A DNA stretch of 64,000 nucleotides, taken from Amphirosellinia nigrospora. Lineage: Eukaryota > Ascomycota > Sordariomycetes > Xylariales > Xylariaceae. The stretch is from contig SCHM01000002.1 in the NCBI GenBank assembly GCA_004123355.1, positions 2,976,001-3,040,000 of the forward strand, written 5' to 3'. The notes under the pieces are model-generated. The model was not told the origin of the DNA. It worked only from the letters and a program-made list of their open reading frames with translations, and made no database searches. Of this stretch, positions 2,745 to 61,842 are shown one piece after another. Position 1 is the stretch's first letter; each line of letters starts with the position of its first letter. Position numbers and translations under genes: made by a program.

Positions 2745-4631
2745 ATGGTACAGACAACAACCACCCTCACTTTAAAACAGGGCAACTACTTAGGTCAGGT
2801 CATCAGCGCCAGCACATCCTCACCGCGCGCCATTCAGGCTTTCCTGGGCGTCCCGTACGCTCAGTCGACCGCAGGACAGAACCGCTTCCGACCACCACAA
2901 GCTCTCGAAATCAAGGCCCATTCGGACACTACCTACCACGCCCTCCAGTGGGGACAAATCTGCACACAGGGCAAGCCTGCGTCCGGACATGGCGAGGACT
3001 GCCTCAACGTGAACATCTTCCGTCCTCACTTTGGCGATGACGCGAAGTCGATTGCGGCAGAGGAGAAGCGTCTTGGCGTGAATGGCAAGAAGCTCCCCGT
3101 CGTGGCGTATGTGCACGGTGGCGGATTCAACATGGGCAGTGGCAAGGAAAGGAACATGGCCAGCTTTGCAGCGTTTGCTGACTCGCCTATCGTCGCTATC
3201 AGCTTCAACTACCGTGTCGGCCCTCTCGGATTCTTGCCGAGTGCCGTGACGGCGAAGCAGGGTCTGCTGAACCTGGGCTTGAAGGACCAACAGTTCTTCT
3301 TCGAGTGGATGAGGACCAACCTCCCTGATATTGGTGGTGACCCTAATAATGTCACGATAATGGGGCTGAGTGCTGGGTCTCACTCGGTAAGACATACTCC
3401 CAATCATTCCAGACCTGCACCTGCGTGCGATACAGTTACCAAGAGCGTGCAACTAATAGAGCATATATAGATCGGGCACCAATTAATATCCTACGCGCCA
3501 GCGAACAAACTCAATAAGAAACCACCTCCATTCCAAAAAGCTATAATCGAATCTGGCGGTGCAACAGCGGGCGGTGTTTGTCCCAGACCACCCTCTCCAT
3601 GAGGAACAATTTAAAGAATTCTTAATGCAATGCGGTATCGCCGATGGCTATGACGAGGATAAGCTCTTCGATATGTTGCGCGACCTACCGTATAACACCC
3701 TTGTGAACGCCGGACAAGCGATGTGGAATGCCTGGTCCGGCACCCTCCGGTGGCCCTTCCAGCCCGTCATCGATGGCCCCGGGGCGTGGTCCCAGACTTA
3801 CCCATCAACTCGTGGCGGAAGGGCAACGTACTCCGCATCCCGACACTAACAGGCTTTAACACCAACGAAGGGGCCGTGTTCGTCCCGCAGCATGAGAACC
3901 AACCCACCGCCGTGCGTAGTCTCCTGGGTTCCATTATCCCTGCGCTCAACGCAACCGATCTCGATCAGCTCGACCAGTTATACCCTAACACTAGCACGAC
4001 CCAGGGCAAGGCGCTGTATGCCAACGCGGGGCAGTCGACGCGCTTTGGTACCCAGTTCTGGCGCCTTGACGACTCGTACGCACATTACGCCTATATCTGC
4101 CCGTGCTGCAGACCGCGTCGTTGGCATCGTCCGCCCACAATGCCGCCCTGTGTACGTATACCATTATGCGGCACGGTCAGCAGCTTTCGGGGCCGCCGAC
4201 CATGCGGATGAGGCGCCCATCGTGACACATGACATGAGCCGCATCGGGCAGTACCCGGTCTGACCGCCGTCGCGGACGCCATGACGGGGGCGTGGACGCG
4301 GTTTGCGGTGACAGGGGATCCGAACCTCTCCCACTCGGGCGAGAAGTCCGAGTTTACCTGGCCGCGGTACTATAGCCCATTCGACGAGAATGACGCTGAC
4401 TCCGATGACGCCGATGCCGGGCGTATCGCGCTTTTCGGCGACGGCAACGACGAGGCGATGGACGGCGCTGGCACACACAGCACTGGCACACCTGTGCAAG
4501 ATGTCCCGCTTACCGAGCGTAATAAATCAGAATGTCGGTACTGGTGGCCGCGCGTAGTATATAGCGAAGGGTGGGCAAATGGCTCCTTGAGCATATCGTC
4601 GGTGAAGTCCCAACCTAAGGCAAAGCTGTGA
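2745..4631 (+). CDS. type-B carboxylesterase/lipase (COesterase family)
   Basis: An alpha/beta-hydrolase of the type-B carboxylesterase family, which hydrolyses carboxylic esters. Visible motifs are the N-terminal GVPYAQ block, EDCLNVNIF, the oxyanion-hole HGGGF, the strand-turn FNYRVGPLGFL, and the nucleophile elbow GLSAGS, in place of the commoner GESAG. An 84-bp intron (3386-3469) follows the elbow. Downstream come IESGGATA, a GFNTNEGAVF stretch containing the expected acidic-residue region, and a C-terminal part ending at 4631. No signal peptide is seen from the 2745 start, so the protein is probably intracellular. The coding similarity moves between frames near 3570, 3782, 4101, 4147 and 4255. 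Each step is explained by one base short in a G or C run. This could be a recent pseudogene, but the same defect affects most genes in the window, so an assembly artefact is more likely. Confidence 0.8.
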
Positions 4632-6187
4632 GGCCTTCTGCTTATATTATACAATGCTGTTGCGGGGCAGAGGACACCGCTTCGCGACTTTGTGTTAAGG
4701 GGGAGACCTTGGAGGATAGGTCTCCAGAAAAGAGAATGTTATATGCCCGTTACGAAGGGTCACTTGCTTTACGAATTACCGCAGAAGCTCAAATCGAAAG
4801 AGTTGCAGCTTCGACTCGAACTCGGACTCGGCGGTAGCTGGACTACATTAAGAATCGCAGAGCGTTCGTGATTTCGTCGACGCAGACGGCCCTACCTACT
4901 ACAGAAATAAGAAGATGGAGCGCTGAGAAGACGGTCTTGGCGACTCCGAACCTCTCTCCATCCAGACAATTGTTCGCTGCTTGGATGACGAGCTTTAATA
5001 TACCTACGGGAGAGAGGAACACCACAACCCCAGCCCTTTTAGGAGCAAGACTCATGAAAGACAGCTGTGCCCGAATGTCTCGGAATGACCCTTGCATTCT
5101 TCCTTTGTTTACGTAGTTGGATATCCCGCTTTTGCAAGACCTGGATAACAAACGACCCAAGGTACAAACAACATAGATGTACATACACATAGACCTGTAC
5201 TTATAGAGACGGTCCTGGATTGGAGGAACGAATTGTATTGTATATATAGACTCAGAGCGCCTCTGCGCATGATTTAGCATAGCGACACATTTTTCACTTG
5301 AATACATCTCTGCAACCAGAATATCCCGAAATCTAAATTCTCTCCGTAGACGAAGTAATACCGATTTATAAAAATTTATGAAGTGAGAACTCATTCATCG
5401 TAGATTTCGCGAATCGACATGCATGTACGACTAAAAACCATGAAATGCAACCTCTCACGGGGATTCAGTACCACCAATGAATTGACGGTTCAAAAGATTA
5501 ATGCTCAAGCATTGCGCAAGTTTCAAAATTAACATATAATAGAAGCTTTAGATTTGTATGTACAGTACATTACCAAAATAGGTAACAAGTTGACAGGCTC
5601 GCGCCTGTCATATTCAATCACTATTGGGTCAAAGTCTTATGATTTCTATCATATTTGACTCAGAACCATAAAGTCTCTCCCCAAAACCACATATACCCCA
5701 CAACTTGGAACGTCTTAACCAACCCAAAAAAAAGCCTGTTGCCCAAGAATGCTTTTCCCCAAGAACCCTTGAATAAACAAGAAATCCAAAAATTACTGTA
5801 CGTGGTGAGTGGATTGGATTCGATAGCATGATCCAAAATTGAAGAATATGTAGGCTAAATATGCAATAAAAATGACAGGTAGAATATTGTGTTGTGAGCC
5901 AACGTCCAATTGCCGAGATTCCTGGTGAGATCGAGAAGCAATATTATAACCTGTATATACCGTGTATATGTCTCACAAAAGTTCGCGAGCACAGTTGTCA
6001 GATGACGAGCTGCTAGGCAATTATTGCGGTTTCGTGATGTAATGGCGTGAAGAGTGCTGAAGAGTTAAATAAAAATTTGGGTATCAGTATGATAGAAGCA
6101 CGAAGGCGTGCATGGTGACAGTTTGTTTTTCATTTTCGTTCCCTTTTGTCGTGCCAGAATCTTGGCCCAAGATATCGTCCCGTACCA
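4632..6187. other. intergenic region
   Basis: AT-richer DNA between two genes whose 3' ends face each other, so it should hold both 3' UTRs. Open frames on both strands overlap at 4843-5394, up to 183 codons, but show no recognisable motif or codon pattern. Confidence 0.5.
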
Positions 6188-7420: not shown

Positions 7421-7467
7421 GATGACCTGACCCCTTTGTTGGACTCTGAACGTCAAGCGCCGCCTGT

Positions 7468-11516: not shown

Positions 11517-13837
11517 CTAATAATCACGCATGCCCCAGTTGGGCTTCAACGTGGAGTTGAGGGACGCCTGGGTGAAGACTGTGTCGCCTGGCAAGCGACT
11601 GATTCGCCCAGCGCCAGCACGGAGCGCATTGAGGCCTACGCCTGATATGCCACTGTGCATGCTGCGTACACTACCCGTCTCGCTCATCGCCTCGGGGTCC
11701 TTAAACCGACGCGGTGGAGCAAAGTCGAGACCAGTAAAGGTACTAGATTTACGTAGCAGGTGTCTATGTAACATTAGCGTGATAACTCTTCTAGGTTGAT
11801 TAGGAGAACTTACGGGCTAGGGAGTGCTGGCGTGTCATCGAATGCGCTGACCAAAGGCGAATGGACAGGCGTGTTTACCCTGTATGGTACACGTTCACCA
11901 AGGGGACTTTGGGATCGGCCAGTTGCGTACTCTCTGAATGTGGGAGGAGGCGCGAAGTCGATAGCACCCGTGATAGCAAAAGAATCATCTTTAAGCTTGG
12001 AAGGAGTTGGCAAGGAGTTCAGAGCAGAAGGAGGGGGCATGGGTTTCTTTGGCTGTCCACCAAAGCGAGGGTTTGAAGCTGATGAACCTGGTCGCGGGCT
12101 CCTAGGGCCCCAACCGCGACCTGAGGTAGTTGATCCAGCCCTTGGTCTTCCTGACGGACCACCATGCATAGGATGGCCCATGGGAGGACCCGTGGTCGTG
12201 TCCTGGATGTCCACGTGGTCCAGCTCCGGGTCCGGGCATGGGGGTCGGTTGGTGGGATGGTGGAGTCATAGCACGGCGAGTAACTGGTTGAGCGTATGGC
12301 ATGACGAAAGCATCGTGTCAGGATCAAAGTAGGCGCCTCGCCACCCGCGTAACCTGAGTTATAATCTTCGTAGTATCCGCCTTGTTGTGGCATTGGGGGC
12401 CGGTTCTGGTCCGCCTTGCTGTCTTCGAATATTCCTTGTTAGAATGAACGAATGCGGTTGGCTCGGAATTCAGGATCTTCTGATTCAAGAAAATCGTCAG
12501 GGGGCAAAGGTCGAAGGCCAACAGATAGCCTCCGATTGTCTTGATTGGGTACGCCCAAGCCAGCCGAATGTGGATGCGCCTGCTCATGGTTGAACGACAT
12601 ATGAAGTTCATCCTCATCTCGTTGGGAGCTGAACCGGTCATCTTCAAATTCAAGTGGTCGGCATAACTTTGATATTCTGCGATAACACTTGGGGCGTTTA
12701 TAACTGGCATCGACTCTTTGCGTGGCGGCCGGACTGCAGTAGGCATAGCCCTAGGCTCGGAAGACTGAGAAGCTGATGAGGCTTGAGACATATGGCGGTT
12801 CATGATACCCAGGCCGTCAGGAACTTGACGGTCAGATTCAACCGGGGGCAAAGAGTCTCTCTCGTTGACAAACTCAGCCACCATCGGCTGAGGCCCTTCC
12901 TTTGGTTCCATCGACGAGGGACGTGAGTTGTGCGGGGGTGACTTGCGATTGGCGGAAGCGACAGCTGCCGGCTCTTGGACCTCAGGGACTTGAGCTATTC
13001 CAGGTCCATCATCCACAAATCGGAAATCATTATTGGAAGGAATCACAGGTATTTCTTCCTGGCGGCCATTAAGATGACGAGGGTGAGCAACAGGAAGCGG
13101 TGACGTCAAAGGAGATGTTGGCAGAGGTGGTTGACGGGGAATATCGGCACTGGGACGGGTTCTGGCCGTGTAGATCGATGATGCCCTATTGCCGGGTCCT
13201 CGTTTGAAGGATCGCATTGAACCAACATCACTACTAGCATAGTCGGCGACAGGCCGATAAGGATCATCGCTCTGATGGAGAGTCTTGGCGAGAGAATTGA
13301 ATGACTCTCGAGAAGTGTGTAGTTCAGGAGGGAGAAGATAAGGGCTGGAGAGGTTCATATCCATCGACAACTGGGGTTTGTGAGTGTGATCCTTCTCTTT
13401 ACCAAAAAAGGCGCTTTTTCTCTTGCCGCCCTTCGGCTGCATCGTATCCTGCAGACCAAAATCCATAGATTTGAACTTGTTTGCCGCTTCTTCGCGTCTT
13501 CGTCTCATTACCCCTTTCGCCAGAAATATGCCAGCCCAACGATGGCGGCAACCAGAGGAATTCTAGGGATGAATCAGTCAACACGAACTATAACCCGGTT
13601 TTCAGAATACTAACACCACACTGATAGCGATCGTCGTTGTGTTAGAGTCACCCCCGACGGGGCCTCGTCGTTTGCTCGAGCCACAATCTGACCAACATTA
13701 CTTCCCAGCTCTACCGGTTCGTCGATGCCTATATTCAGAGCCTCCACTGGATTTGGCCCTTCCGAATCAACACGTGACCGCCGGGAATGCGAGTGATAGG
13801 CACTATGGCCCTGGCCATGAGCATGTCTATGAATCAT
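11517..13837 (-). CDS. single-pass membrane protein with long proline-rich cytoplasmic tail
   Basis: Exon 1 (ATG at 13837) encodes a His/Arg-rich N-terminus (MIHRHAHGQGHSAYHSHSRR) and an acidic stretch leading to TLTQ. A short intron of about 50 bp (GTTAGT donor, CTGAT branch, TAG acceptor) splits a membrane helix. The helix reads IAISVVIPLVAAIVGLAYFW across the junction. A basic anchor (MRRRREEAANKFK) and some 500 residues of low-complexity Pro/Ser-rich tail follow, with SMDMNLSSPYLLPPELH, DVGSMRSFKRG and the terminal FTQASLNSTLKPNWGMRDY. A second intron (about 54 bp) precedes the last 85 residues. The family looks like a conserved filamentous-fungal hypothetical; I know no function. The frame moves near 13634, 13511 (G/C run), about 12650 and about 12400. 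Role in plasma-membrane or cortical signalling is a guess. Confidence 0.6.
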
Positions 13838-15389: not shown

Positions 15390-17517
<2,128 letters not shown>

Positions 17518-20795: not shown

Positions 20796-22545
20796 TTATA
20801 TGGCAAACATCTACTATCATCTACAACGTCTACTTCCATCCTCTACGGAAGTTCCCCGGGCCACTCTTGCAAAGAGCGTCCGGGCTTCCGTGGGCTATTC
20901 AGCACACATTCGGAGTACAGGCTCACAGGACGCAAAAGCTTCATGATCATTATGGTCCTGTTGTAAGAATTGGCCCAAATCATCTTTCGTTTACAGATAC
21001 GAAAGCATGGAAAGATATATACGGACATCGCGTTGGGCATGATCTTCATTGTAGGTCCTATCTAAGTGACTCCAGGCTGTTCGGTGTCTCACACTGACTC
21101 GTGTGCTCATCTCGATAACCCCATCACATAAGCTAACACTCACGCCTCACAGCAAATGAGATGAGCAAGTCTGCCACATTCGTCAAAACCATCCGAGACA
21201 TCCCTACCTCCATCATCAATGCTGATCGTGAGGAACACTCACGGTTCCGCCGTGCGTTGTCTCATGGCTTCTCCGATGCCGCGATGCGCCAGCAGGAGCC
21301 CGAGATTGTTAAATACGTAGACCTCTTGATTGAGCGTCTGCACCAAGAATGCGACCAGGGAAAAAAGAAGCTGAATCTTGAAGCCTGGTTTAACTGGACC
21401 ACGTTCGACGTCGTAGGCAACCTCGTTTTCGGGCAGTCGTTCAACTGCCTCGAGAACAGCAAAACTCACCCCTGGATTGAATTCATCTTCAAGAGTATTA
21501 AGGGCGGTGCTATGATAGTGGCGATGACCTATGTTGGTTTCAATGAATTGGTACAGGTCCTATTCAAGTTGGGCAGTTTTTCCATCAACCGAGTGCAGAG
21601 ATACACCGACGCGATGGTGGAATCACGTCTGTCTATGGAGAAATCCCGTGAAGACCTATTTGAAGGCCTCGTGAAGAGGCGTGATGACTGGGTAGGCGTT
21701 CTCGAAGTTCACACATTACTGTCCAATGAGACTTTTCTAACTCGATAAATATCACACAGAATTTATCGTTTAAAAAACTATCGTCTAACGCATTCATTCT
21801 CGTTTTAGCCGGGTCTGAAACTACGGCGACGACCTTGGCTGGTGCTACTTACCTTTTGCTGACCCATCCTGAGATTTTGGAAAAGCTAAAGCATGAAGTC
21901 CGATCGACCTTCCAGGATGCCGGCCAAATCAATATCAACACCGTAGGCAATCTCAAGTACATGCTTGCGATCCTCAACGAATCACTGCGTCTGTACCCCC
22001 TGTTACAGCAGGGCTGGTTCGTAATGTGCCGAAGGGAGGTGCCGAGATTGCAGGTCACTTCGCACCAGAAGGCGTGAGTAACTTCACATCTCAACAAGCG
22101 GGGCTATTTGATACTAATACGACACTTAGACGCTCGTGGAAGTGCAGCACTGGGCGGCGAACCACAGCAAGGACAACTGGGCCGACCCGTGGGAGTTCAG
22201 GCCCGAGAGATTCCTCGTACCAACGAAGAGGCTCTCCAAGCTGGCAATAAGCTCGAGGCCCTCCAGGCTTTCAATGTCGGCCCCAGAAACTGTATTGGGC
22301 GCAAGTAAGACTTACCTCTCCTCCTCCTTCTCCTCCTCTTAAAGTATCAGCTGACTAACTTGCTTACCCCTTTATAGTCTTGCCTACGCTGAGATGCGAA
22401 TCATTCTAGCCCGCCTCATCTTTGACTTCGACCTGAAGTTGGATGCCGGTTCGGCAGGCTGGATCGAGAGACAAAAGGCGTACACGCTTTGGGATAGGGT
22501 TCCCCTCGCGTATATTTAACGCCGGTGAGGGAGGCCAAGGCCTAG
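20796..22545 (+). CDS. cytochrome P450 (isotrichodermin C-15 hydroxylase-like)
   Basis: A heme-thiolate monooxygenase. Visible in order are YNVYFHPLRKFPGP (proline-rich hinge), HDHYGPVVRIGPNHLSF, and the C-helix region HSRFRRALSHGFSD. They are followed by the I-helix AGSETTATTLAG, the K-helix ESLR in LNESLRLYP, the PERF-type WEFRPERFL, and the heme loop FNVGPRNCIGR, whose Cys is the iron ligand. Introns are 21051-21152, 21692-21759, about 22075-22130 and about 22305-22378. The sequence type resembles the fungal CYP65/isotrichodermin-hydroxylase-like group, but the substrate cannot be told. The N-terminal membrane anchor is not seen; a TAG acceptor just before 20792 suggests an upstream exon. 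Frame steps at 21996-22000 (C run), near 22215 and near 22510 each fit one missing base, the last giving a normal LTPV end at 22545. No cluster partner genes are adjacent. Confidence 0.85.
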
Positions 22546-26393: not shown

Positions 26394-29300
26394 ATGTAAG
26401 TCTTTTATTTGCTAACTAGCAAGTCGCATTTGCTACGGAGTTATTAGTGCCTTCCTTTACATCATGTGGTTGTGGCTAATTCGTTCCTCTAGGAAGTTCG
26501 GCAAACAAATCCAGAAGCGTCAGCTAGAGGTCCCCGAGTATGCTGCCAGTTTCGTGAACTACAAAGCTCTTAAAAAGGTGCGTTTGGTAGAACCCCTACT
26601 AAAATGAGTACTCTGTGCTGCTGGTTAGCAAGCTTTCCATGTGGCGAGTTGCTGGGCTCCATACTGCTGTATATTATATACGGCATTATCAATGCAGTTG
26701 ACGTTGACCCTAGTTCCCAATGCTAACCGACTTTATCAGCTTATAAAACGACTTTCCGCTACTCCAACTCTCAGTGCCCAAAATGATCCTCCTTCCTCCT
26801 GCACCTGTAGATACGCAGGTCGCTCTACAAGCGAACAAAGCAAAATTTTTCTTCCAACTAGTACGGTCTACACCAGTTACCCTTTCGCTATACTTCATTC
26901 AATGGCTACTAACATTCCAAAGGAGCGAGAGTTAGAGAAGGTCAATGCCTTTTACCTTCAGAAAGAGGCAGAGGTGAGTTATTCTCAGTGGCGCTCATCT
27001 TCAGGTTTCGAATTATGATAATGACCATGTTCTAGCTCAAAATACGACTTAAAACACTGATAGAAAAAGAAAGTCCTAAAGTCACGGCAAGGAATTTCCA
27101 GACGGTCGGCGAAATTCACTACTCTAGAAGAAGGGTTCCAGCAGTTTGCCAATGATTTGAATAAGCTCCAACAATTCGTCGAAATCAACGGTACCGCCTT
27201 CTCAAAAATTCTCAAAAATGGGACAAGACATCAAAATCCAAAACGAAAGAGCTATACCTCTCCCGTGCCGTGGAAGTGCAGCCTTTCTTTAACGCCACCG
27301 TCATTAGCGAGCTCTCAGATCAAGCTACAACAAGCTTGCAAGAGCTAGGAGCCTGGGCGGATGGTGATAATGTCAATTTCGAAGGGAAGGCGGAACAACA
27401 TATTGTGAGCAGTCAACACCTGGTTGGAACTGACGAAGGCGATGCAGATAGCTTGTTACTAGATACTGCCATCTCTGGCAACTTAGAGTCTTTACGGGAC
27501 TTGTTGTCAAGAATGCAGGATGCTTCAAGTTCGACACCTACAATGGATATCTCTTTAAGAGAAAGGGTTACGCGAACGTTCCTTGCTGCTGTCAATGAAG
27601 CGCCACAAGCGTCACTTGAAGTGTTGTTAGCAACAGGCCTTGTCGACGTCCGGTCCGAGGATGATATAAATGAACGAAATTGCGTTCATCAGGCCACCAT
27701 CTATGGAAATCAGTTCGTGCTGAGTGTCGGCCTCTCGGGGGGTGTCGAGGTCAACAGAACAGATGTATATGGTAGGGTACCTCTACATTATGCGAGCATG
27801 CATGGCCGCTTAGACATGCTTGAGGTTCTTCTTCGAGGTGCGACTAATTCTTACCCTGATCAAGGCGGTATGTCGTTTCTAAACCGTTGCGTAGCGGTCC
27901 CTCGACAATCGATATTATCGATCATGATAATTTCACTCCATTAATCCATGCCATTATTCATGGACACCTCACATGCGTCCAACTACTTTTGAATGCCTCG
28001 TCTCGGTTAGATCCCGTATCAGAGACAGACCACATACCACTTAACTTAGCGTGTGAACATGGCTCAATTGAGATCGTAGAGATTCTCTTGCAGCATGGTG
28101 CACAAATACTTGCTGACGCTGAAGGGCTCTATCCACAACACCTTGTGGCCCGGTCAGGACAGACCCCCGACTGCTTCGTTTATTAAAGCAATACGGAGCC
28201 GACTTAGATCAGATCGACAAGCTCTACGGATGGACGCCGTTGGTTCATGCTGCAAGTGAGGGGAATGTACCATGTCTTCAGGGACTGTTAAGCGTTGGCG
28301 TCAATCCGAATATTGTCGACGAGAAGGATTTGCCTGCCATGTACTACGCGGCGTGGGAGGGCATTTAACATGTATGCAGCTGCTCACACCGTTTCAAAAG
28401 GGGAAGGCAGAAAGCCCCTTAGCAATGCAAGCTACTGGATCACTATTGGTGCCCATGGCTAATAGCGGCGGACCTGTTCCTATGTCGCTAGATGTCGATG
28501 CGATCCCCGCATTAGAACTACCTCCTCCTATCATCCCACTACGTCGGTACGGTCACAATTTCTTGGACACCAAAACCGTCGTACAGATCAGTTTCGATGA
28601 GAACGGACAACAGCCTCTAGTGTTCTTCCATGACAGCAAATACCCTGCTGCTCGGCTTACTATCTCTTCCAAGTTGTCAGATCTTATACCGAAGAATATC
28701 ATTCTGCCCTTTCAGGAAGATACCCGACTTGTTTCTTTCCAGGTGGATAACCTTGATACCTTCACACTTGATTTTGACGTCTTTCCAACATATGGTGCCA
28801 AGATCATTGCGAAGACAGTTGCTCTTCCCGAGGCTTTCAGATCATCCTGGAAGAGCTCCGGTAGATGTTGCCTAGCCTTGTTCGACCCGCGGCTTCGGGC
28901 CATAGGGCAGATCACCTTCAATACGCAAGCCATTAAGCCCTTTCGAGGAGCCCCATTGGAAATCACAGACTTTGAGACATACTGGAAAGCTACAAGCCAA
29001 CTCGACCAAAACTTTACGACGTTTGTCACTGGGTCAAGTTTATCAGGAGAATTTGTTCAGCTCCATGTTCAACACACCAGTGACGGAATCCCTGTCGTCT
29101 GGCCAACATGGAAGATACAATGTGGCCAGTTGAGATGCCACTAGCCCGTCTGACTTTTGAAGAGTTCACTACTGTCACGGCGACAAGCCCTACTCGTGCC
29201 CATCTTTCATCGATATTAGCACATGGGCACGAGAACATAGCCGAAGTACATCGCGTGCTCTCGACAGCGGGAATCTCCGTTGAACAGGCTTTGTCGGTGC

Positions 29301-29962
29301 TGCCTGCTTCAATGCACGTCAATCTACAGATCCTCTACCCGTCCGAGGATGACGAGAGAAAATTCGGGATTGGTCCAACCGTGGATACAAATAGCTTCGT
29401 GGATGCCGTCTTGGCGGTTGTGTTCGATCATGCGCGAGAGCAGCGAGCAAGGACGCTGTCAGCTCCTAGCGCGGTGCGATCAATCGTGTTTAGCTCATAC
29501 AACCCAACCATGTGTGCAACTCTCAACTGGAAGCAACCGAACTTCCCCGTCTTTCTTTGCAACGACCTCGGACGCGAGGAGACCATGCCGGCTCCGAACG
29601 TCATCCAGAGCAGTGGCCGGAGAACCTTCTCGATCAAGGAGGTGGTTAGGATAGCGCAGAATAATAACCTCATGGGGCTTGTCTGCAGTGCTCGGTTACT
29701 GGTGAGTTATCTCATCCTCTTCACTTCGTTTCTTCTCCCCACCCACTTTGCTACTATAGAATGAATCACTAACAGTAAACCCCCTTAAAGGATATGGTGC
29801 CCGCCTTGGTGGATGCTATTAAGTCCCACGACTGCCCTCGTGGTTGATCAGTCAGCTAACCAACGGATGCACTCGGACCCATTCCAGCGCATCCCAAAAG
29901 GTGTCGACGGTGTTTTGAAGAGCAACGGCGTTCTACGCTTTAACGAGTCAATTGACGTATAG
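26394..29962 (+). CDS. nuc-2: phosphate-starvation regulator NUC-2/PHO81 (SPX-ankyrin-GDPD)
   Basis: Orthologue of Neurospora NUC-2 and yeast Pho81, the inhibitor of the cyclin-CDK that keeps the phosphate-starvation transcription factor inactive when phosphate is plentiful. The N-terminal SPX domain starts KFGKQIQKRQLEVPEYAAS and continues with EREL-KVNAFYLQKEAELK and LQQFVEINGTAFSKILKK, the inositol-pyrophosphate-binding type of surface. Ankyrin repeats follow (for example YGRVPLHYASMHGRLDMLEVL and DNFTPLIHAIIHGHLTCVQLLL), then a degenerate GDPD-like C-terminal half ending at 29962. The initiator codon is itself split by intron 1: AT at 26394-26395, intron 26396-26492, G at 26493. Further introns begin at 26578, about 26860, about 26974 and about 29701. 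Frame steps near 26790, 27064-27068, 27214-27218, 28165, about 28370, 29126 and about 29850 mostly equal one base missing in a run. Confidence 0.9.
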
Positions 29963-32035: not shown

Positions 32036-33164
32036 TTATGGTGATGTTGTAGGGAAGTTCTTAAAATTCCCATTATTATCATACTTGGCTTCTGTAAAAA
32101 AAGGAAACAAGTTAGTTAGCTCGCCATCACCAACTGCAACTAGAGCAACTATGCCGGCTCTCAAGATACGAAGAAAAGGGCCGTGGCGCAAACTTACTAA
32201 AGAAGGTATAGCTCAACGTGACCTCATTAATGCCCTCATGTTCAGGTCCTCCAGCAGGTCGGGGTCGAGGTAGAAGAAGACGGGCATGTCGACCGTCTCC
32301 CCGGCGTTGAGGCGCTGCTCCTCGAAGCAGAAGCACTGGATCTTGCTGAAGTAGGGCGCCACCTGGGCCGGGGTGACGCTGTACGTGGCGACGCCGATGA
32401 TGTCGCTGTCGCTGCGGTTCGTGGCCGTGTAGAACGCCAGCGCCGTCTCCCCGGTAGCACGCGCACCTCGCGCTGCTGCGGCGTGAACTTCCACGGCAGC
32501 ACGTCCGACACCGAGGCGTTGAACGTCACCCGGATCCGTCGCGCGTCCTTCACCGGTATCAGCCGCGACGCCGGGTCCCCGTCGGCCGACCCGCCGTGGC
32601 CCGGCGCCTTGATCGGTTGACCGCCCCAGCCCGTCGTTTGGCAGATCTGTTATTCGGGGATACGTGTTAGCGCTGATCATGGTATGATCCCGGAGTCGTC
32701 ATTCCCCTTCGAGTCGCCGTAGCAAACATAACTTGGTAGGATATTCGACGCTGAATACATCAGAATAGTCTAGGCGGGAAAGACGCACCATCTTATACAT
32801 GGGCACAGAGCCATACGACAAAGCGACGGTGCCGAGGATGATGCTGAGAGTGTAGAACCTAGCACATGGTACATAATGAGCTCCCTGTCTGACACTCGAC
32901 CCCCTCTCTTATACAGCTCCGAGTGGATAAACAATTGGCATACATAGTCGTGCGGTTCTTATATTTATAGTGTTCGCGCAAACGGTCCATCGAGGGCGGC
33001 TGCGTCTGACCCTGCTGTGCTTTCGTTGTATTGGAGATCGGCCGGTGAGCCGCGCGCATGGGGAATTGCCTCGCTCGGGCGAGTTCTCGACGACACGATG
33101 CGCATGCCCACGACGAGGCGTTCGACTGGAGAGCTCTCCACGAGAGCCGCGGGAGAAAATTCAT
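32036..33164 (-). CDS. COX11: cytochrome c oxidase assembly protein COX11
   Basis: Copper chaperone of the mitochondrial inner membrane that delivers copper to the CuB site of Cox1. The ATG at 33164 opens a basic, Arg-rich presequence (MNFLPRLSWRAL). The conserved KNRTTM follows, split by an intron between AT and G. Next is the membrane helix FYTLSIILGTVALSYGSVPM, then an intron, and ICQTTGWGGQP. The soluble domain has DVLPWKFTPQQ, the copper-binding CFCFEEQ with its two cysteines, LNAGETVDMPVFFY and INEVTLSYTFFKA. A last intron ends in TTTTTTTACAG before KYDNNGNFKNFPTTSP, stopping at 32036. Frame steps at about 32233-32235 and 32449-32452 lie in C runs and each needs one base. Apart from these the gene looks complete. 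Confidence 0.93.
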
Positions 33165-37178: not shown

Positions 37179-38008
37179 ATGGCGAACCCCCTCGACACCG
37201 ACGCCGGCTCCGAGCTGTTCGCCAGCTACGAGGCCGAGTTCAAACTCGTGCAGGCCGACCTGACGCAGAAGCTCGACCAGATCCCCGAGCTGAACGGCGA
37301 GCCGCGGAAAGCCGCTGTCACCCAAGCCGAGCGGGCGCTCGAGGAGGCCGAGGAACTGGTACGGCAAGACCCCGAAAAATAAAACATAGTAGATTTTAAG
37401 GACGGACGGACTCGCTAACTCTTGAGATTGAGAAACACAGCTCGGCCAGATGCGCCTGGAGAAGCAGAACATCCCTCCACGAGCCGGGCCAAGGTGAACG
37501 CGCGGCTGCGTAACTTCGAGACGGACGTCGACAAGGCCAAGCGGAAGCTGCAGGCGCTCGCCGACGACCGCGCCGCGCTCTCGGGTCCCGCTACACGGAC
37601 GACCCGGACGCGTCGAGCCCGAGCGACCGCCAGCTCGAGCAGCGGCAGCAGCTGCTGGCGGGCACGGACCGGCTAGACCGGTCGTCGCAGCGGCTGCGGT
37701 CGTCGCAGGCCCTCGCCCACGAGACCGAGGCCATCGGCGCCGCCACCCTGGCCGACCTGCACTCGCAGCGCGAGCGCATCCAGCACACGGGCGAGATGCT
37801 CTTCGAGAGCGAGGGCTACGTGGATCGCAGCGTCAAGACGCTGAGGGGATGGCGCGTAGGTAATGTGACTCCTTTTTTCTTACGGCGTATGTACGTGGTA
37901 ACTAACACCTTCCCGATCAGGATGGCTACGAATCGGGTAATCACCATCGCCATCATCACGGTGCTAGTCATACTCATCTTCGCCATCATCTTTGCCAAAT
38001 TCAGGTAA
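37179..38008 (+). CDS. VTI1: vesicle-transport v-SNARE VTI1
   Basis: Qb-SNARE acting in Golgi, endosome and vacuole fusion. Exon 1 encodes MANPLDTDAGSELFASYEAE, the start of the N-terminal three-helix domain. An intron (37359-37440, CAG acceptor) is followed by LGQMRLEKQNIPP and KVNARLRNFETDVDKAKRKL. The SNARE helix region contains SDRQLEQRQQLLAGTDRLDR, SSQRLRSSQALAHETE and IGAATLADLHSQRERI. A second intron begins at about 37857 and the last exon gives MATNRVITIAIITVLVILIF, the C-terminal membrane anchor, stopping at 38008. The short sequence after the anchor (AKFR) is normal. Frame steps near 37484, 37575 and 37845-37848 (a GGGG run) each need one base. The partner SEC17 lies 5 kb away on the other strand. 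Confidence 0.93.
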
Positions 38009-38650: not shown

Positions 38651-41600
38651 TTACCTCCTGCCAGGCGACTTCGGCTTCCAAACCTTCCCACCACCAAATC
38701 CACCACCCGAGCCCCCCCGTCTCTTGTCCTCACCAAGCCCGCGTCTACCGGATGCAATACCGCCTCTACCACTTCTGCCCCGCGCATACCGCCGCCCCCG
38801 CGCATACCACCGGTACCACCGCGTCCTCCACGGAAGTGCCCACCGCCTCGACCCCTGTTGACATGGATTTGATTGTCGAGACCTCCTTCTCAGAGACGTC
38901 CATCTCCTCATCTTCGTCGTCCGTCTGTCCCCGTTTATTAGAGAACTTGAGGCGACCACCGCGGCCTCTGCGTCCCGCATCCTTGCCCTTTAGCGCCGCA
39001 ACGTAGGCACCGACACCGCCACCCTCTTCGTTGGCTGGCGTATCAACCACCATGGCGTCATCGTCTGCGCCGTCACTATCTTCACCTACGATGAGTTTGC
39101 CATCCATATCTGTCTTCATCTTTGTTTTGCCGGCCTTTCGTAGCTTGCCTGGCTTGGTCGAGGAAATGCTAGCTAGTGCTTTACGGTCCAATAAATCGAG
39201 CGGCTCATCTTCATCCTCCATGATGTATGCATCACCACCCTTCTTTGACTTGCGTGATGCGCTAGGCATGTCGCCGTCCGAGTCACGCCGATGCGTCCGA
39301 GTCATCGCTGCTATATAATGCCTCGTCATATTCGCTCTCGAAACGGCCACGTCGTTTGGTGCTCTGATCACCCTCGTTGCCTTGTGCTTTGGCAGCCTCT
39401 CGCTTCCGCTTGCTGCGCTCCTTGGTCTTGCGAATATTGGTCAACAATTTTTTGTCCGCCTCGGGCAGCTCCTGTTGACAGGCTCGAAACCAAAGCGACG
39501 GACCATTCTCTCTAGAATGTGCTTGACCTTGGCTTTGAAATGGCCCTTGTGCTCATGTGACCAAACCATTAGATTCGGCACCATCGACTGCAGTCGGGGA
39601 AGCATCATCTCAGTTGGTAAACTGATAACACAAACTTTGACAAATCCTAAAACACTCTTTACGATCTCTCTGTTGTTGGAGGTCAAGAAGAGATCCAAGG
39701 TCTGTACAAGATCGCTCAGTACTTCGGGGCTCACGGATTCTCTAAACTCGTATAGGATACGCGTTAGGGCAGTGATCGAGGCTGAAATCATATGTGGTGT
39801 GCTTCCTGCCAGGCCGGCGCTAATCATGGTGAAGAACTCTTCTATGCTCGCAGAAACAGATGGCGAATTATCAGGCATATGAGGAACCTTGCTATTATCG
39901 ATTTGTTTGCCCTTCGCTGCTTCGAGTCGCTGACCCATCGTTACTAGCAGGTCGTATGCGATTGTTCTCGCCTTCTCGTTGTTTTCTTTGCAGCAAATCA
40001 CTACTTCGGATAGAACAGATGGGACGAAGTGAAGAGAATCATCAGGGATGAAGGGGATCAGAGCAGCCATAGCGGCCAGTCGTTCCCGTCGAGCTGGAGC
40101 AGAGACCTTTTCCGCACTCGATAAGAGTAAGTTTTGTAACTCCCATATTGTTCCTGAAGAGCAATCTTTCCCGTCTCAGAGTCGGCCAGCCTTGGTATTA
40201 ATTTGTACGCTTTCTTCTGCAACTGGGGTTCATCATTTTTCACAATAATAAGAGAAGCGATATTGAAAAGAGCTCCAAAACTCCGTCGTGGTAGGTATGC
40301 AGACATAGTGATAACCAAGTCCATAAGTGTTTGACTTGTTGAAGGCATCTTGTCCTGCGAGTTTTGAGGTTTGCTCTTGCCCTCTGCGTTGCTAGCCTCA
40401 TTAATTGCACCAGCAAGCATTGTGCTGACACGATCAAAGGTCTCGACTAATTCGTTTTCAGAGGTGATGCTGAGGTATGCATTTATCGTTTGCAGTATGG
40501 GCCCTCGGGACTGAGGAAGAGTCTGGCTGTAGACATTGAATAGAACAGCTAAGAGATTCCCAGCAAACCCGCCAAGGTATATAAGATTGTGCTGAGCATC
40601 GGCTTTCGACACTCTGCTCTGGAGAAGTAGGTCATCCCCATCTTCAATGGCAATAATAGCCTTGTTAGACTCAACTAATGACCTAAGGGCTCGGCATACA
40701 TCTAATCTTAAATCGACTTGTTTGTATAGAAGGTTAGCCAACATTTCTGCGAAACTTTGGTCAAAACCAACAGTTAGGTCCAGTGGAGATCGCAATATCC
40801 CGGAAGAATGGACCACGTTTGGTTGACTATTGTCTCGTAGATTTTGACTTCCATGGTTTTCGCAGCTTCGCCGTGATCGAGCACACGTTGAAACATTGCT
40901 TCGCTTAGCGGTACGAACTCGGTTCTAAAGTGTTGGATATTGGTGTTAGATGTGTAGTCTCGTAAAATTGGCAGCATCCACGCCCTGCCAGCTTGCCCAC
41001 TGACTGGTTTAACGAGGTTCAAAGGTAGAACTGATAGAACAGATTCTGGCCCCATTGCCCGTATAGCTCTGCCAATGACCTCATCCGCTTGTTTCTTGCC
41101 CACGAAGGAATCATTGCCACGAATTTCTCCAATAGTTCGTACAGCATTCCGCATAATAGGGTCAGCACGCCACCTCAACGTATCGAAGATGGACCCGAGA
41201 ACGTTGAATGTCTCCATCCATGCCGCCTGATATCTTACACTGATAAGGCTCTCCGCGAGCCTAGCAATCTTCTCTAATGTCTTCTCATCGTAAATTGAAG
41301 GTTCGATAATGACTTGATCTGGAATGCAGTTTGCTACGAACGAAATTAAGCACTCGGAAGCAGAGACCCGAATATTATGTGAGGACGAATCCATGAAGTC
41401 GGAGATCATTGCGAACAAATCGGGCAATTCTGAAATGTTTCCTCAGGTTCGATCTGAGCCGAAACATCATATCCGCGTGACAAGATGGCTATCCACGGCG
41501 GAAGTAGCTGAGTATCATGAGCGGCGGGTCGCATTTCTGAGATGATCTCAAGAAGGCGGGGAAGTTTCGCTGAGGCGACTTCATCAGCCATACCCTCGAA

Positions 41601-42480
41601 AATCATTTCGAAAATGTCAAAGACAGCCATCGTCATATGCTCATTTCCACCCTTGGCAATGCTGAGCAGAAGTTCACACAAGGCCTCCAGATTCCTACTC
41701 GGCCATCCACCGCTTGCTGCAGCGATTGTCTTCACAAGTTGCAAGGCATGTATCAGGGCCGGATCGTGCTCTCCGCTGATGATTTCTTCTGCTTTTTTGA
41801 AATGGCAGCCTTGGCAGCCAGGTCGGACAAGCTACTCATGGCGGTCTCGGCGCAGAGATCAGAGGCGGGATGATCGAGGGATGGACTCGGCGGCGGGTTC
41901 TTGAGGACTTTGCGCAAAGCATCCTGGCTCTCTTGCGTACTTTTGGTCGGGGATCGAGGGCTAGATGAAGGAGCCCGGCAACGGCCCTTCGCGGCTGATC
42001 TCGGTGGTGGGTAGCTTCCATGCTGCCGAGTCCTGGCAAGAAAAGAGACTCAAGACATCCTATCGACTCTCAACAAGGGGCATCTGCGCCGCCAGTAGTA
42101 AGACGGAGCGAGGAGAGTCAGGATCTGGGTGAATTTGGCGCGGAGCAGAGGTTGCGGCGCGAAGGGTGTGACAGTATCGAGCAGGTATACGATGGACGGT
42201 GTTAGTTCTTTGTTGCCTTTGCCCTCGCCAACGGACTGGTTGAGCAGAGCTAGGAGTGCGGCAAAGTATCCGGTCGGCGTCGGCGACGTGTTCTGCTCTT
42301 TCAGCGTTTCCTCGACGGCCTTTAACACAACTACTACGTCTGCATACGAAGAAATGACATCAATTAGCATACACATGGAGCTGCGTGGAATGGATAGTTC
42401 ACTGAATTGTCGCTCACCTGTTGTTGGCTTTGAAGATTCGGAGACCGTATCTTGTCTAGCTTCTCCTCCAACGTCGCCAT
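38651..42480 (-). CDS. RRP12: ribosomal RNA processing protein RRP12 (NUC173)
   Basis: HEAT-repeat nuclear protein needed for export and maturation of pre-40S and pre-60S particles. The ATG at 42480 begins MATLEEKLDKIRSPNLQSQQ, followed by an intron of about 78 bp. The N-terminal HEAT region contains TGYFAALLALLNQSVGEGKG and VAGLLHLALDPRPKVRKRA. The NUC173 domain is clear (SILPGYCDLHWTNLTVGFDQ, VDLRLDVCRALRSLVESNKA), then further HEAT repeats (for example MVPNLMVWSHEHKGHFKAKV, KHILERMVRRFGFE). The tail is acidic then RGG/Lys-rich, ending GGGKVWKPKSPGRR at 38651. The length, about 1,200 residues, suits the family. Frame steps were noted near 42330, 42080, 42010, 41790, 41430, 40790, 40130, 39475, 39310 and in the GC-rich tail. 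RRP12 is essential in yeast, so these are unlikely to be genuine. Confidence 0.92.
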
Positions 42481-42911
42481 CGTGAAAGTCACAGTACGCA
42501 GACTTGTTAATGCCTTCAGAGACTGGTTCGCAGGAGAGCGCAACTGGTGGATTTTGGGTTTTTTTCTGGCTATCGCTGTTATCGGCGCTTATCGCACGCC
42601 GACCCCACATTTTCTCCCCCGCCACCATGCCAGGAACAATGCCCAGTCTCTTACGTCGTACTGACTTTCACATCAAATTCCTACCTCGAATTGCTTCTCA
42701 GACAGGTTAGACAGCCAGGAAACTCACAATTTATACGTAGATAGGGACCACATGGTTAGTTGATGGGTTTCCATTGATACCAACGATAGTTACTCCGTAC
42801 ACTAATTAACGCTCGCATGTAATATGGGGCTTTGGTCCCTGCAATCGTTGTAATCCAAGTCCCACCGTAACTCCATAATCAATCTTCTCGAGCTGTGCTC
42901 GTGCTGTGAGT
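42481..42911. other. intergenic region RRP12-SEC17
   Basis: The 430 bp between the start of RRP12 and the stop of SEC17, which are in tandem on the minus strand. It must hold the RRP12 promoter. No gene was seen. Confidence 0.5.
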
Positions 42912-43967
42912 TTATGCGAAGTCTTCCTCCTTGATATTGTTCTTTATCCGCAGCAGGATTTCCGTCTTCCACTTGTCGAGTTTTGACATCTGATCATACT
43001 GGTATAGCTTGTCCTCGAAATCCCCTGAATCCTGAGCTTCTAAAGAACCGGCGAGGTCCACAAGTAATTGGTGCTCCCTTGTACTAGCAAATGTGGGGTC
43101 CGTCTCCCTGTACTTCTCAAATGCCCGGTTCGCGCCAACCAAGTCCTCGGTAGCCAGATGGCAAATGCCAGCTTTTAAGAAGTGGTCCTTCACCGAGTAC
43201 CGTAGAAGGTTGTTGTTAACGGAAGTCTCCGCGATCTTTTCATAGTGTTGGATTGCCTTGTAGTAGTCCGCCTCTAAAGCGGCAAGGTCCGCCACCTTTA
43301 TTAACAGCTTATTCGCCAGTCTAGACATTCTAATTAGCACACATGGGCGGTGAAATTCGCGGGCCAGTTGCTTGAGATGGGACCTACGCTACAGCATTGT
43401 CTGATTCGTACCAGCCGGCCGCAAGTTCGTAGCTCTCGAGTGCGCGTTTCCTGTCGCCTAGTTCGACCTCGAATACCTCGCCCACGTGCTCCTTGTGTTG
43501 GGCCGCGCGCCTGAAGTTCCCCTTCTTGCAGTATTGATTGATAGCGACGTCGATACATCGGACAGCATCTTCGGGGTTTTCTTTGCGATAGACCTACGCT
43601 CTAGTAAGATAAAAAGTTGGTAAAATAGGGTATCATTACTGCTGTACCTTGAAGCATTCTACCATAGTGTTGGCGGCATCGTCGGGTTCCTTGAGATTCT
43701 GGCCCTGGATGGTAGCAGCCTTCTCAAAGGCGAGGCCAGCCTCTCGCATGAGGCCCTGCATACGGAACGCATTGGCGGCTTCGACATAGAGATCGGCGGC
43801 ATTCATGTATTTGTCCTCGCGTCCACCGAAGAAACTGAATCCGCCGCTCGCAGAGGCCAGGGCCTTGTCTGCCTACATCCAGAGATCATCAGCACAAATG
43901 AAGCGGAGACAGGCTGGGTCAACAAGGGTCTAACCTTTTGTAACAATGCGCGAGGATCGCCGGACAT
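42912..43967 (-). CDS. SEC17: alpha-SNAP SEC17
   Basis: Adaptor that recruits the NSF ATPase (Sec18) to spent SNARE complexes for disassembly. The ATG at 43967 starts MSGDPRALLQK. Intron 1 (43873-43934) leads to ADKALASASGGFSFFGGRED, the membrane-contacting loop, and KYMNAADLYVEAANAFRMQG, the first TPR-like hairpins. Further introns of about 65 bp follow VECFK and SDNAVA. Other family blocks are ALESYELAAGWYESDNA, KVADLAALEADYYKAIQHYE and NNLLRYSVKDHFLKAGICHL. The end is DKWKTEILLRIKNNIKEEDF plus A at 42912, close to the conserved C-terminus that stimulates Sec18. The spliced frame is unbroken and about 292 residues long, the usual family size. Confidence 0.95.
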
Positions 43968-44640: not shown

Positions 44641-44738
44641 GGCAAGATGGCCGAGTTGGTTATGGCGTGAGGTTAAGGTCACCTTAGCACAGTTTCCTCA
44701 TGGAGAAATCCGCGTGGGTTCAAGTCCCACTCTTGTCA
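44641..44738 (+). tRNA. tRNA-Leu (AAG anticodon) with 16-nt intron
   Basis: The acceptor stem GGCAAGA pairs with TCTTGTC (one G-T), with discriminator A at 44738. The D stem is GCC/GGC, the anticodon stem TGAGG/CCTCA, the T arm GTGGG-TTCAAGT-CCCAC, and there is the long variable arm (GGA/TCC) typical of class II Leu tRNAs. The loop reads TT-AAG-G before the intron at 44679-44694, giving anticodon AAG at 44675-44677. The intron starts one base 3' of the anticodon, the canonical position. Its CCTT can pair with the anticodon AAGG, as in eukaryotic pre-tRNA. The mature tRNA is 82 nt before CCA addition. Confidence 0.95.
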
Positions 44739-44743
44739 AAGAT

Positions 44744-56526: not shown

Positions 56527-59500
56527 ATGGTTGTGGTGGATAACTACGAGTACATGACGGAGGAGGAGAAGCGTCTCGAAGAGGATCGCAATCGCACCAA
56601 ATATTGGAAGCAATGGGGTTCCTATGTCGCTGAGCGCCAGTGGGCAACAGGTAAAATAATATAAGAGAACAATTGACGTCGATCTCGGCTCTGACATATC
56701 ATGACCAGTGCGAGAGGACTACAGCGCCGACGGCGATGCGTGGAGTCGTGAGTTGGCTTCCCCTGCCTTGCTATGATTTCTACGCATCAACTGATTCCTG
56801 GCTACCTATAGACTTCACCCACGACCATGCTAGGTCTCGAGCCTTTCGCTGGGGCGAAGACGGCATTGCAGGCGTGTCCGACACACACGGCTTACAGAAC
56901 ATCGCCTTTGCGTTTTGGAACGAAGAAGAGTTAGTTGATAATAAGCAATGGCTCAACGGAGAACTCACCACTGACGACTAGCCAGCCCCTTCCTCAAGGA
57001 GCGTCTGTTCGGTCTGTCAAATCCACAGGGAAATCATGGTGAAAGTATCAAGGAAGCTCATTTTCACTTGGACAACACTCCTGTAAGCATGGGTTCTTGA
57101 ATTTGATGGACAACTACCGAATGAAAGCTGACACTGAATTTGCAGACTGTACGGACATAGCTCCCATCCCTCTGCCCTTTACCGCGGCCAATAACGGAGG
57201 CTCACATTCATTATAGCATTCTTACATGAAATATCTCTACAAATATCCGCAAAAGGCCTTCCCTACGAGGATCTCCTCAAAGAGAATGCGCGACGCTCGA
57301 AAACGGACAAGGAGTACCAGCTTATTGACACTGGTGTATTCGAAGACGATCGATACTGGGATATCGTGATCGAGACGGCTAAGGAAGGCGATGACCCTCA
57401 AGAGTTGCTATTCCGTGTGACTGCCTGGAACAGAGGGCCGGATCCTGCTCCGCTGCATATTATTCCCCATGTTTGGTTTCGAAACACCTGGGCCTGGGGT
57501 CGCGAGCCCGAGGACCAAAAACCATCGGTCTCGGAGGTTTCAGAGAACCTAGCGCGTTCAAAACACCCCAAGTTGGGAGACCGATACGTGTTATTGTCAC
57601 CTTCGCCTGGTGTCGGGCCCAGCGGCGAAGATGTACAACCGGAGCTTATTTTTACCGACAACGATACCAATCTTGACCTCCTTTACGGGCAAGAGAACAA
57701 GACACCGTATGTGAAGGATGCATTTCATCGATATATTGTGAGCGGTGAGAAGGAAGCCGTGAACCCTGCAAAGACGGGAACCAAATGTGCTGCTTGGTTC
57801 CCATTCAACGAGTCGGGCGGTGTTGGCCCCGGAGAGTGTGCAGGTGCGTAAAAGGACCCAAATTGTTTAATACCAGCCCGACTTACACCCGCCATAGTTG
57901 TCCGCTTCAGATTATCCAAACGAGACGAAACGTATCTTGACGAAGAGGTGTTCGATGATATAATCGAGAAAAGGAGGGAGGAAGCCGATGACTTCTATTA
58001 TCGTATCAGCCCTCTGCCTATGTCGGAGGATCTCCGAAATATCCAGCGCCAGTATGTGTTCCTGAGCCTCTTTTCCCCTGTCGTTCAGTTTTTTTGGCTT
58101 CCGCGTATTCTTGACAATTCCTATGATCAGCCTAAGTTTTATCGGAAGAGGTAGTTTCTAACGGTTGAGTGATGCAGAGCTTTCGCGGGTATGATGTGGT
58201 GCAAACAGTACTATCAGTTCATCTGGGATCAGTGGGCCATGGGTGACCCGTCTCAACCACCGCCTCCTCCTGAGAGAAAAGCAGTGAGAAACTCTCAGTG
58301 GAAGCATCTTTATATCGATGACATCTTGTCTATGCCTGATTCCTGGGAGTATCCATTCTTTGCCGCTTGGGACTCTGCTTTCCATTGTATACCTCTTGCG
58401 ATGATTGACCCAGAGTTTGCAAAGAAGCAGATTGATCTCTTTACGAGAGAATGGTATTGCCACCCTAATGGCCAACTTCCAGCGTATGTGAATCCGACCT
58501 GCCAACTTGGCTTTGCAAGTTATTAACATTCTTTAGGTATGAATGGAACTTTGGCGACGTGAATCCTCCAGTCCATGCCTGGGCGACTTTCCGTGTGTTT
58601 AAAATTGAACGCAAAATTTACGGTAGACAAGACCTCGACTTTCTGGAGAGAGTCTTCCAAAAACTGCTTTTGAATTTCACTTGGTGGGTTAATCGAAAGG
58701 ACAAGGATGGCAAGAATGTATTCGAGGGCGGTTTCCTTGGGTTGGACAACATTGGGCTCTTCAACCGCTCTGAGCCTCTACCTACGGGTGGCGTCCTCGA
58801 ACAAGCCGACAGTACGGGATGGATGGCGTTCTACTCTGTCTTTCCATGTTGAACATAGCTCTTGAGCTGGCTAAACATAGAAGAACATACGAGGACATTG
58901 CCTCCAAATTCTTCGAACATTTCATCTTGATAAGCGATGCCATGACTTTCAAAGCTGGTAAAGATGAGAAGTCATTATGGAATGAGAGGATGGCTTCTAC
59001 TACGACGCGATTTCATGGGGGTCCCTGGATTCAGCAGTTGCCAGTTCGATCACTCGTCGGACTAATTCCCCTATACGCGACCATGACACTCGAGCCCGAA
59101 CTGATCAACAAGCTTCCGTCTTTCAAGAAGCGAGTAGATTGGTTCATGGAGAATAGATGCGATATAGCCGAGAGGAATATGGCAAGCATCCAGAAGAGGG
59201 CAAGGGTGACCGTATCCTGCTGGCTATGGTTAGCAAAGATCGACTGGAAAAAATTCTCAAGCGAATGCTTGACGAAAATGAGTTCTTTAGCGATCATGGT
59301 ATTCGATCCCTATCCAGATACCATAAAGACCATCCATTCTCCATGGATGTCAATGGTCAAAAGTTCACCGTTGGATATGTACCAGGGATTCGGACAGTGG
59401 TCTGTTTGGAGGCAACAGCAACTGGAGAGGCCCAATTTGGCTCTGCGTCAACTTCTTGCTGGTAGAGGCTCTTCAACGCTTCTTTCTCTTCTACGGACCT

Positions 59501-60187
59501 GGGTTTAAGGTGGAGTGTCCCACTGGGTCTGGTGACTATATGCATTTGGGCCACGTATCGGAAGAGATACAACATCGCTTGCAGCACATGTTCGCTCGTG
59601 GCGACGATGGCCGTCGTAGCATCAATGCCGGAAGCGATATGCTTGACTTCGATCCTCACTGGAAAGACAACCTCTGGTTCTACGAGTTCTTCGACGGCGA
59701 TACCGGCCGTGGCCTCGGAGCATCCCATCAGTGTGGCTGGACAGGTCTAATTGCTCGCATGATCCATGATACTGGGTAAGTTGAATATTCAACGCAACCC
59801 CAACCGGACTACTGACACGTAATTAGAATCAGTTGTCGCCTACCTCAGACACCACGAACGCCGTCTGTGGGCATGGCCCACTACTTCGACGATACGTTAC
59901 ATCGACACGTACATCTTAACAAGCAAAAACCTCGGAAACCGCACATGCGCCGGTCATCTACGGCCCGCTCCATCGGAGCCCGAAGCGACTTTGACGCAGA
60001 CCCGTCGGTCAACGGCGAGGAATTCGAGGCTCGTAGCGTGGCGCCCGACAACCCCGAGCGCGAGGCTCAGCGCAGGGAAGCCGACGCTCGCCTGCACCAA
60101 TACATCTCGGACGAGCTTCAGCGCGTTATTGACGATGACGATGGCCATCCAGGCATCGATAGAGAGGAGTACGAGGCACATGCGTAA
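56527..60187 (+). CDS. GH63-like (MGH1/YMR196W-type) glycosidase, cytosolic
   Basis: The start ATG at 56527 (CAAGATGG context) gives [20 protein letters not shown], with no signal peptide. Exon 1 ends at 56650 and several short introns split the first 500 bp. Family blocks are [51 protein letters not shown], and [20 protein letters not shown]. The (alpha/alpha)6 region has [82 protein letters not shown] and [13 protein letters not shown]. These match the GH63-type six-hairpin fold of yeast YMR196W, whose substrate is unknown. The C-terminus is an acidic, charged tail ending at 60187. Frame steps near 58,845, 58,990, 59,017 and 59,200-59,400 are single-base deficits, two in G runs. ER glucosidase I of the same family has a membrane anchor, so this is a different, cytosolic branch. 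Confidence 0.85.
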
Positions 60188-60929
60188 TTGGATAGGCCTG
60201 GCATCCCTATCTTAGGTTTAACAAGGAGCATGAGACGCATAGCAACATTACAGTAGAGAACGATAAACTAGAAAGAATCTAAGTTTCAAGAGGTTTAAGT
60301 CGTTTTCGGCTGGCATTAGTAGAAGGTATTGATATAGAGCATTGGAAATAATAGACATGCTTATTAGAATACGAGGCGTTCATAGGATGGTGCTATTCTT
60401 AAATTTGATGAATGTAGGTTAATGTTCCATGGTTAGTATAGTGATTTGACTTCATGTCAGTCACGATAAGTAGTGAAGGATTTGGCGAGGGCGAATTAAG
60501 GGGGTAATATCTCAGTCCATCGTCCCTATATCCAGCGAAGATCTTTCGGTTGAGCTCCGGATATCTACGCCTAAATAATTGGTAAACGTTTCCTCGGGAT
60601 CTGAATGTGAGGAATGGAGATATTCAAGAGAATACTGTGAAGGAAGATCCGCGGGAACGGTAATCACTAGACATTGGTGGGTATATATATGTTAAGGGTA
60701 CAGCGATCGTATCCACACAGAGGAAAGGGATGCCGCTGGATCTGGCGATGAATGCAACCTCTCTATTTTGATGCTCCTAGACACATAATGGCATCTCCTC
60801 CCCGCTCTAAGGGGGAGCTACCGGGTTCGGGGAAACGGAACACCGTCCGCAACATAGCCACGGTTTCTACCGGCTTTGCCTCGCCTCACTCAAAACCTGA
60901 ACAGGGGAAAAGGTAGATAATTGATTATT
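60188..60929. other. convergent intergenic region
   Basis: 3' flanks of the glycosidase and ATP synthase genes. AT-rich; no gene was recognised. Confidence 0.5.
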
Positions 60930-61842
60930 TTACAGGGTGTCGGTGAGGAGCTTGTTCATCTTGGCGATCTTGGAGGACACAGATAGGTCGATCGTTCGGT
61001 CACCAATCTCAACAACGAGACCACCGAGGATATCAGGGTTTACCTCGTTGGTCACCTTCAGCTTCTTACCCTGGCCGACGTACTGGGACTTGGAGACGGC
61101 GGTCTCGAGACGGGCGAGGGTCTTGTTGTCGAGTTGCTACATTCGTTGATTAGCTCGTCTCCTAGTTTTAGTAGTCGCTGCGTCTAGACAGCCATATAGT
61201 GGGTATTCGGTAAATGGCATACCTGGGCAGATGTAACCACCATCTCGATCTCGCCGCGGGAGGCGCTGATGATCTGAGCAAACTTGTCGCAGACATCCTT
61301 TAATAGAGCCAGACGGTTGTTCTCGGCAAGGGTGGCGAGGAAGTTCTTGACGGTCTCGTTGGAACCAGCAGCGCCGATATTCTTCTGGAGCTCGGCTAGG
61401 ATGGCGCTCCTGTCACCGGGGTCAGGGTCGGTGTCGCCAGGATGGAGGCGAGCTTGGCGTCCTTGCTGTATAGATCGCCGAGGGCGCTCAGGGCTTTTGC
61501 TGTCGGGTCGAGGCTCGAGGTCTTGACGGCGGCCGTGTACTAAATGGCTCATGCGTTAGCCCACACAAGCTTCGCTTCCCCCCCACAAGCCACAGCCATG
61601 CTCCAATTGATTAAAGGAGAAATCGAAAACGCCCGGTAGCACAATTGAGCCGTGATAATGGGTGTCGACGGAGGTATCTATCGTACCAGAGCAGTGGCAT
61701 AGGTGCCATCGAGACCGTAGACAGAAATTGGGGCCTTGACGTCTTGTGTAGCGGCGGCGGCGTAGCAGCGCACGGAGGACTGGGCGAACGTCCGTTGGGG
61801 AGCCGCAGCTCGGAGAGATCGGAGAGCCTGTCGAGACAGCAT
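60930..61842 (-). CDS. ATP5: ATP synthase subunit 5 (OSCP), mitochondrial
   Basis: Oligomycin-sensitivity-conferring protein, the peripheral-stalk subunit that joins F1 to the stator. The ATG at 61842 starts MLSRQALRSLRAAAPQRTF, a classic Arg-rich mitochondrial presequence. ISVYGLDGTYATAL follows, then an intron of about 135 bp and YTAAVKTSSLDPTAKALSAL. The body has NETVKNFLATLAENNRLALL and VCDKFAQIISASRGEIEMVV. After an intron of about 95 bp comes QLDNKTLARLETAVSKSQYV, then GGLVVEIGDRTIDLSVSSKI and KMNKLLTDTL, stopping at 60930. The C-terminal GGLVVEIGDRTIDLS is the delta/OSCP signature. A longer in-frame start upstream (61995) is less likely. One frame step at 61419-61422 lies in a GGGG run. 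Confidence 0.95.

Follow-up and report, generated by a model that had tools for sequence, protein, structure and literature searches.

Conserved genes along the window, by which we mean the whole 64,000-nucleotide stretch of Amphirosellinia nigrospora DNA analyzed here (C4:2976001-3040000), repeatedly change reading frame where a single base appears to be missing. Are these genes decaying, or is the assembled sequence at fault? Our data argue for the latter: the breaks are very probably consensus errors, mainly single-base losses, that occur genome-wide, with a density of very roughly one break for each kilobase of conserved coding sequence, likely in a long-read assembly that was inadequately polished with short reads. 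The assembly comprises 48.1 Mb in 11 contigs, the longest of 13.8 Mb, which suggests a long-read origin; that it is an unpolished long-read assembly, as the initial annotation put it, we infer from the contig sizes and the type of error, not from any platform record. Two of the contigs are small (C2, 57 kb; C3, 18 kb). Gene content and splicing point to a filamentous ascomycete. A profile search of the whole assembly for the COX1 family returned zero candidates, which suggests that the assembly lacks the mitochondrial genome or that it was not picked up.

We placed the breaks with a protein-to-DNA aligner that allows both introns and frame breaks, using as references relatives with solved structures. 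This located 24 breaks across ten genes (11,574 aligned bases). Four of the genes lie in the window (DHX35-like helicase, 7 breaks; COX11, 2; ATP5, 1; VTI1, 1) and six outside it (CCT8, 6; CCT7, 3; CCT3, CCT4, CCT6, and HSP60, 1 each). Nineteen are one-base losses and three are one-base gains, all of the latter in CCT8. The remaining two, in the helicase and CCT7, are ambiguous, being scored as two-base losses although they could be one-base gains with one residue fewer. If both are counted as gains, the balance is 19 to 5 (two-sided p about 0.007 under even odds). The claim that nearly all shifts are deletions holds insofar as losses exceed gains, although two of the sites listed in its support shift in the opposite direction.

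The breaks are present in the assembled sequence and cluster in certain genes, as would be expected if they were real pseudogenes or the result of relaxed selection, with the strain carrying inactivating indels. Real decay also adds substitutions, yet no in-frame stop was found in 3,858 matched codons, a zero that the aligner's penalty on stops partly favors, and identity to the reference proteins is ordinary for orthologs (475/629 in the helicase and 414/467 in HSP60). The chaperonins also speak to this point. A search of the genome for this family, in which all 25 of 25 candidates were scored, led to ten places, one of which is a partial profile match and was excluded. Six of the nine full genes are broken (CCT3, CCT4, CCT6, CCT7, CCT8, and HSP60) and three are intact; no second copy of any of the six appears among the 25 scored matches. 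CCT subunits are essential in yeast. Many indels, no nonsense codons, and broken essential single-copy genes together disfavor decay, which we regard as very unlikely. The breaks were described as window-wide; they are indeed spread over the genes of the window, but they are not specific to it, since chaperonins are broken elsewhere in the genome.

The three intact putative CCT genes serve as a control. They showed no break in 12 alignments, with four distant references each, and none by the decoder described below, and the aligner therefore invents none, even at about 30% identity. Since the other genes were picked for looking broken, only the chaperonin set gives an unbiased rate, namely, 13 breaks in 12,669 bases with the three intact genes entered at a nominal 1,440 each. 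The spread is uneven, with seven breaks in the helicase, six in CCT8, and three CCT genes free of them (p about 0.006, on the nominal lengths of the intact genes). This clustering by gene suggests uneven coverage or polishing rather than one constant rate. CCT8 has the highest density, with six breaks within about 1.2 kb, and alone combines both signs; it may be a stretch of poor coverage.

Unrecognized short introns could imitate frame breaks. Introns are frequent in these genes, at lengths of about 48 to 150 bases, and the decoder rendered some breaks as introns. At the placed breaks, however, the frames abut or overlap and the reference residues are contiguous, leaving no room for an intron, and we consider this explanation very improbable. 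In the proteasome family, likewise, two pairs of matches overlap in the DNA in different frames; because they overlap with contiguous profile ranges, these pairs leave no intron room either.

The initial annotation had placed the breaks mostly inside homopolymer runs. This fits the sites that it had picked, but the set placed by alignment shows only a modest excess, so the enrichment is weaker than claimed. Of the 24 breaks, 8 have a run of at least four bases nearby, whereas chance would give 14.8%, judging from coding positions (p 0.019), and 17 have one of at least three bases, where chance would give 53.4% (p 0.065). With tight placement, runs coincide with 7 of the 24 breaks where 5.9 are expected, an excess that is not significant; this placement relies on a codon score, is precise only to within a few bases, and weakens any association with runs. 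A mutator lineage that had lost mismatch repair, with contraction of runs, would also produce an excess of one-base losses. We give this scenario still less credence than decay: the bias toward homopolymers is weak, such a lineage could not survive with broken essential genes, and the genome holds six MutS_V and three DNA_mis_repair (MutL-family) matches, the longest open frames being 1156 and 874 aa for MutS and 823 and 547 aa for MutL. One MutS-family match contains three stops.

Programmed frameshifting or insertional RNA editing on a pervasive scale, restoring the frames, would square broken DNA with living cells, which is the sole point in its favor. The sites vary among genes, the shifts are of both signs, no 5-mer is common to more than three sites, and a slippery heptamer lies near none of the 24 breaks, the last being weak evidence, as chance predicts 2.2% per site or about 0.5 in all. 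We hold this to be as improbable as the intron explanation. The fuller version, in which the breaks are genuine and frames are restored after transcription in hundreds of genes, found no support and is the least credible of all the readings considered here.

We also applied a frame-aware hidden Markov model, trained on open frames of the same genome and using no homology. At a frameshift penalty of -9.5, this decoder called 18 deletions and 3 insertions in the 30,321 coding bases of the window; outside it, in 10 of 13 sampled 10-kb stretches (three AT-rich ones were dropped), it called 10 and 6 in 39,542. The total is 28 deletions against 9 insertions, and the loss excess outside the window is small. 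The counts are penalty dependent, since window deletions and insertions fall from 23/6 at -8 through 18/3 to 10/2 at -12 and 1/0 at -15. At the 12 sites listed in the initial annotation, the decoder called four nearby deletions (3783, 4255, 27221, and 61437) and one insertion and missed seven; the insertion, at 4097 for the site at 4100, is really two successive deletions by frame reading. The decoder was rejected as sole evidence, as it is penalty dependent, hid breaks as introns (at 21996 and in COX11), and merged the two deletions at 4097. Given these shortcomings, our conclusions are based on the protein alignments.

A 10-kb nuclear stretch designated L007 (Table 1) has a composition that looks like repeat-induced point mutation near saturation, and parts of two further stretches, L012 and L013, are similar, with 11-24% G+C.

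At the individual sites, the initial annotation was confirmed in part. The runs that it quoted are present, at or within about one base of the positions given, and a one-base deficit was recovered at 10 of its 12 sites, seven by three-frame reading (3781-3784, 4100-4102, 4254-4256, 13511-13514, 21996-22000, 27214-27218, and 37845-37848) and three by alignment to reference proteins (32233-32235, 32449-32452, and 61419-61422). The other two, 27064-27068 and about 59017, have one base extra or two missing by frame reading. Further breaks lie beyond its list: one more in the esterase, located between 4100 and 4254; two in VTI1, close to 37481 and 37594; and seven in the DHX35-like helicase. The regions that it held to be intact (SEC17, flavoprotein, GatC-like, and DUF2293) show no frame break by the decoder. 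Its gene names were borne out by Pfam for the esterase, P450, COX11, VTI1, RRP12, SEC17, and ATP5; for nuc-2, Pfam finds ankyrin plus a GDE1-like C2 domain, and no Pfam match was obtained for the glycosidase pieces, one DUF2293 exon, or the membrane protein at 12326-13562.

Table 1. Features of the window (plain positions) and of other parts of the assembly (positions with contig names)
Feature	Position	Strand	Frame breaks or other content	Basis
Carboxylesterase-like, last exon	3568..4631	+	At least four one-base deficits: near 3783, 4100, between 4100 and 4254, 4255	Decoder, frame reading, Pfam COesterase on upstream piece
Frame change after membrane-segment-like stretch	13470..13560	-	Near 13511-13514	Frame reading only; no Pfam match for downstream piece
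DHX35-like RNA helicase	15405..17352	-	Seven: six one-base losses, one two-base loss or one-base gain	PDB 9l5s_z (E 1.9e-289), protein-to-DNA alignment
Cytochrome P450	21161..22519	+	One-base deficit at 21996-22000, unflagged by decoder	Frame reading, Pfam p450
Presumably nuc-2/PHO81-like	26902..29764	+	Net +1 shift at 27064-27068; deficits near 27221, 29100	Decoder, frame reading, Pfam ankyrin and C2_GDE1
COX11 domain	32199..32541	-	Two one-base deficits	Pfam CtaG_Cox11, PDB 1so9, alignment
VTI1	37179..38008	+	Deficits near 37481 (alignment), 37594 (decoder, frame reading), 37847 (frame reading)	Pfam V-SNARE_C
RRP12	38766..42628	-	Decoder-called deletions 39475, 40144, 41428, 41801; insertion 39286	Pfam RRP12_HEAT
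SEC17	42912..43967	-	No frame break by decoder (internal contrast)	Pfam SNAP, last exon
tRNA gene	44641..44738		98 bases, therefore probably contains an intron	Rfam, 46.6 bits; absent from ARAGORN output (bacterial setting)
Glycosidase-like	58980..59060	+	One-base deficit near 58990; net +1 shift near 59017	Frame reading
ATP5 (OSCP)	60933..61740	-	One one-base deficit near 61419	PDB 5lqx_U, alignment, Pfam OSCP
CCT8	C1:6115480-6116998		Six	Alignment
Chaperonin family, tenth place	C1:9737921-9738568			Partial profile match
Proteasome, overlapping pair	C4:8021110-8021476		Different frames	Profile matches
Proteasome, overlapping pair	C6:1764108-1764427		Different frames	Profile matches
Stretch L007	C5:2500001-2510000		8.4% G+C; 44 CpA per 10 kb; TpA/ApT 1.22; (CpA+TpG)/(ApC+GpT) 0.17	

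A living haploid cannot carry broken essential genes without a second copy, and taken together the data are best explained by consensus error. In this scenario, a long-read assembly without adequate short-read polishing would be the likely cause; its consensus would drop mostly single bases, the frames of unrelated genes would break across the genome, and the true genome would be intact at the sites of the breaks. The artifact interpretation offered in the initial annotation is thus upheld: it alone accounts for broken essential single-copy genes both inside and outside the window, losses in excess, and no in-frame stops. Several points fit consensus error poorly, namely, the weak run enrichment, the three gains (perhaps five), the uneven spread, and the small loss excess outside the window. 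The run link and the clustering nevertheless do not favor any of the biological rivals.

Comparable cases have been described. According to the excerpted report on nanopore-only assemblies of Drechmeria coniospora, small indels shift the frames of conserved single-copy genes, "... than one-sixth" (the first word is missing from the excerpt) of 305 conserved genes were predicted at full length, and homopolymer errors were fixed by short-read polishing (PMC7500977). Our case is the same insofar as indels break conserved single-copy genes in a fungal assembly; it differs in that, per the same excerpt, the Drechmeria errors are mostly homopolymeric and, after polishing, more often insertions, whereas most breaks in our assembly are losses and runs are only modestly overrepresented (PMC7500977). 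In the portion available of the report on Kastor, indel frameshifts in long-read drafts yield many false pseudogenes, reduced in one example from 23.3% to 5.6% by correction, and the errors associated with runs of two to eight bases are the deletions (PMC12007338). The gene-fragmenting indels are alike, but the cases in that portion are bacterial genomes with reads, and their association with runs is stronger than ours (PMC12007338).

In conclusion, the frame breaks constitute a correct data-quality warning, and they hold no new biology. Apparently broken genes in this assembly are not to be trusted without checking, and until the assembly is polished, its gene models may contain truncated proteins or introns that do not exist. 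For many genes, counts, claims of pseudogenes, and losses based on it would be wrong.
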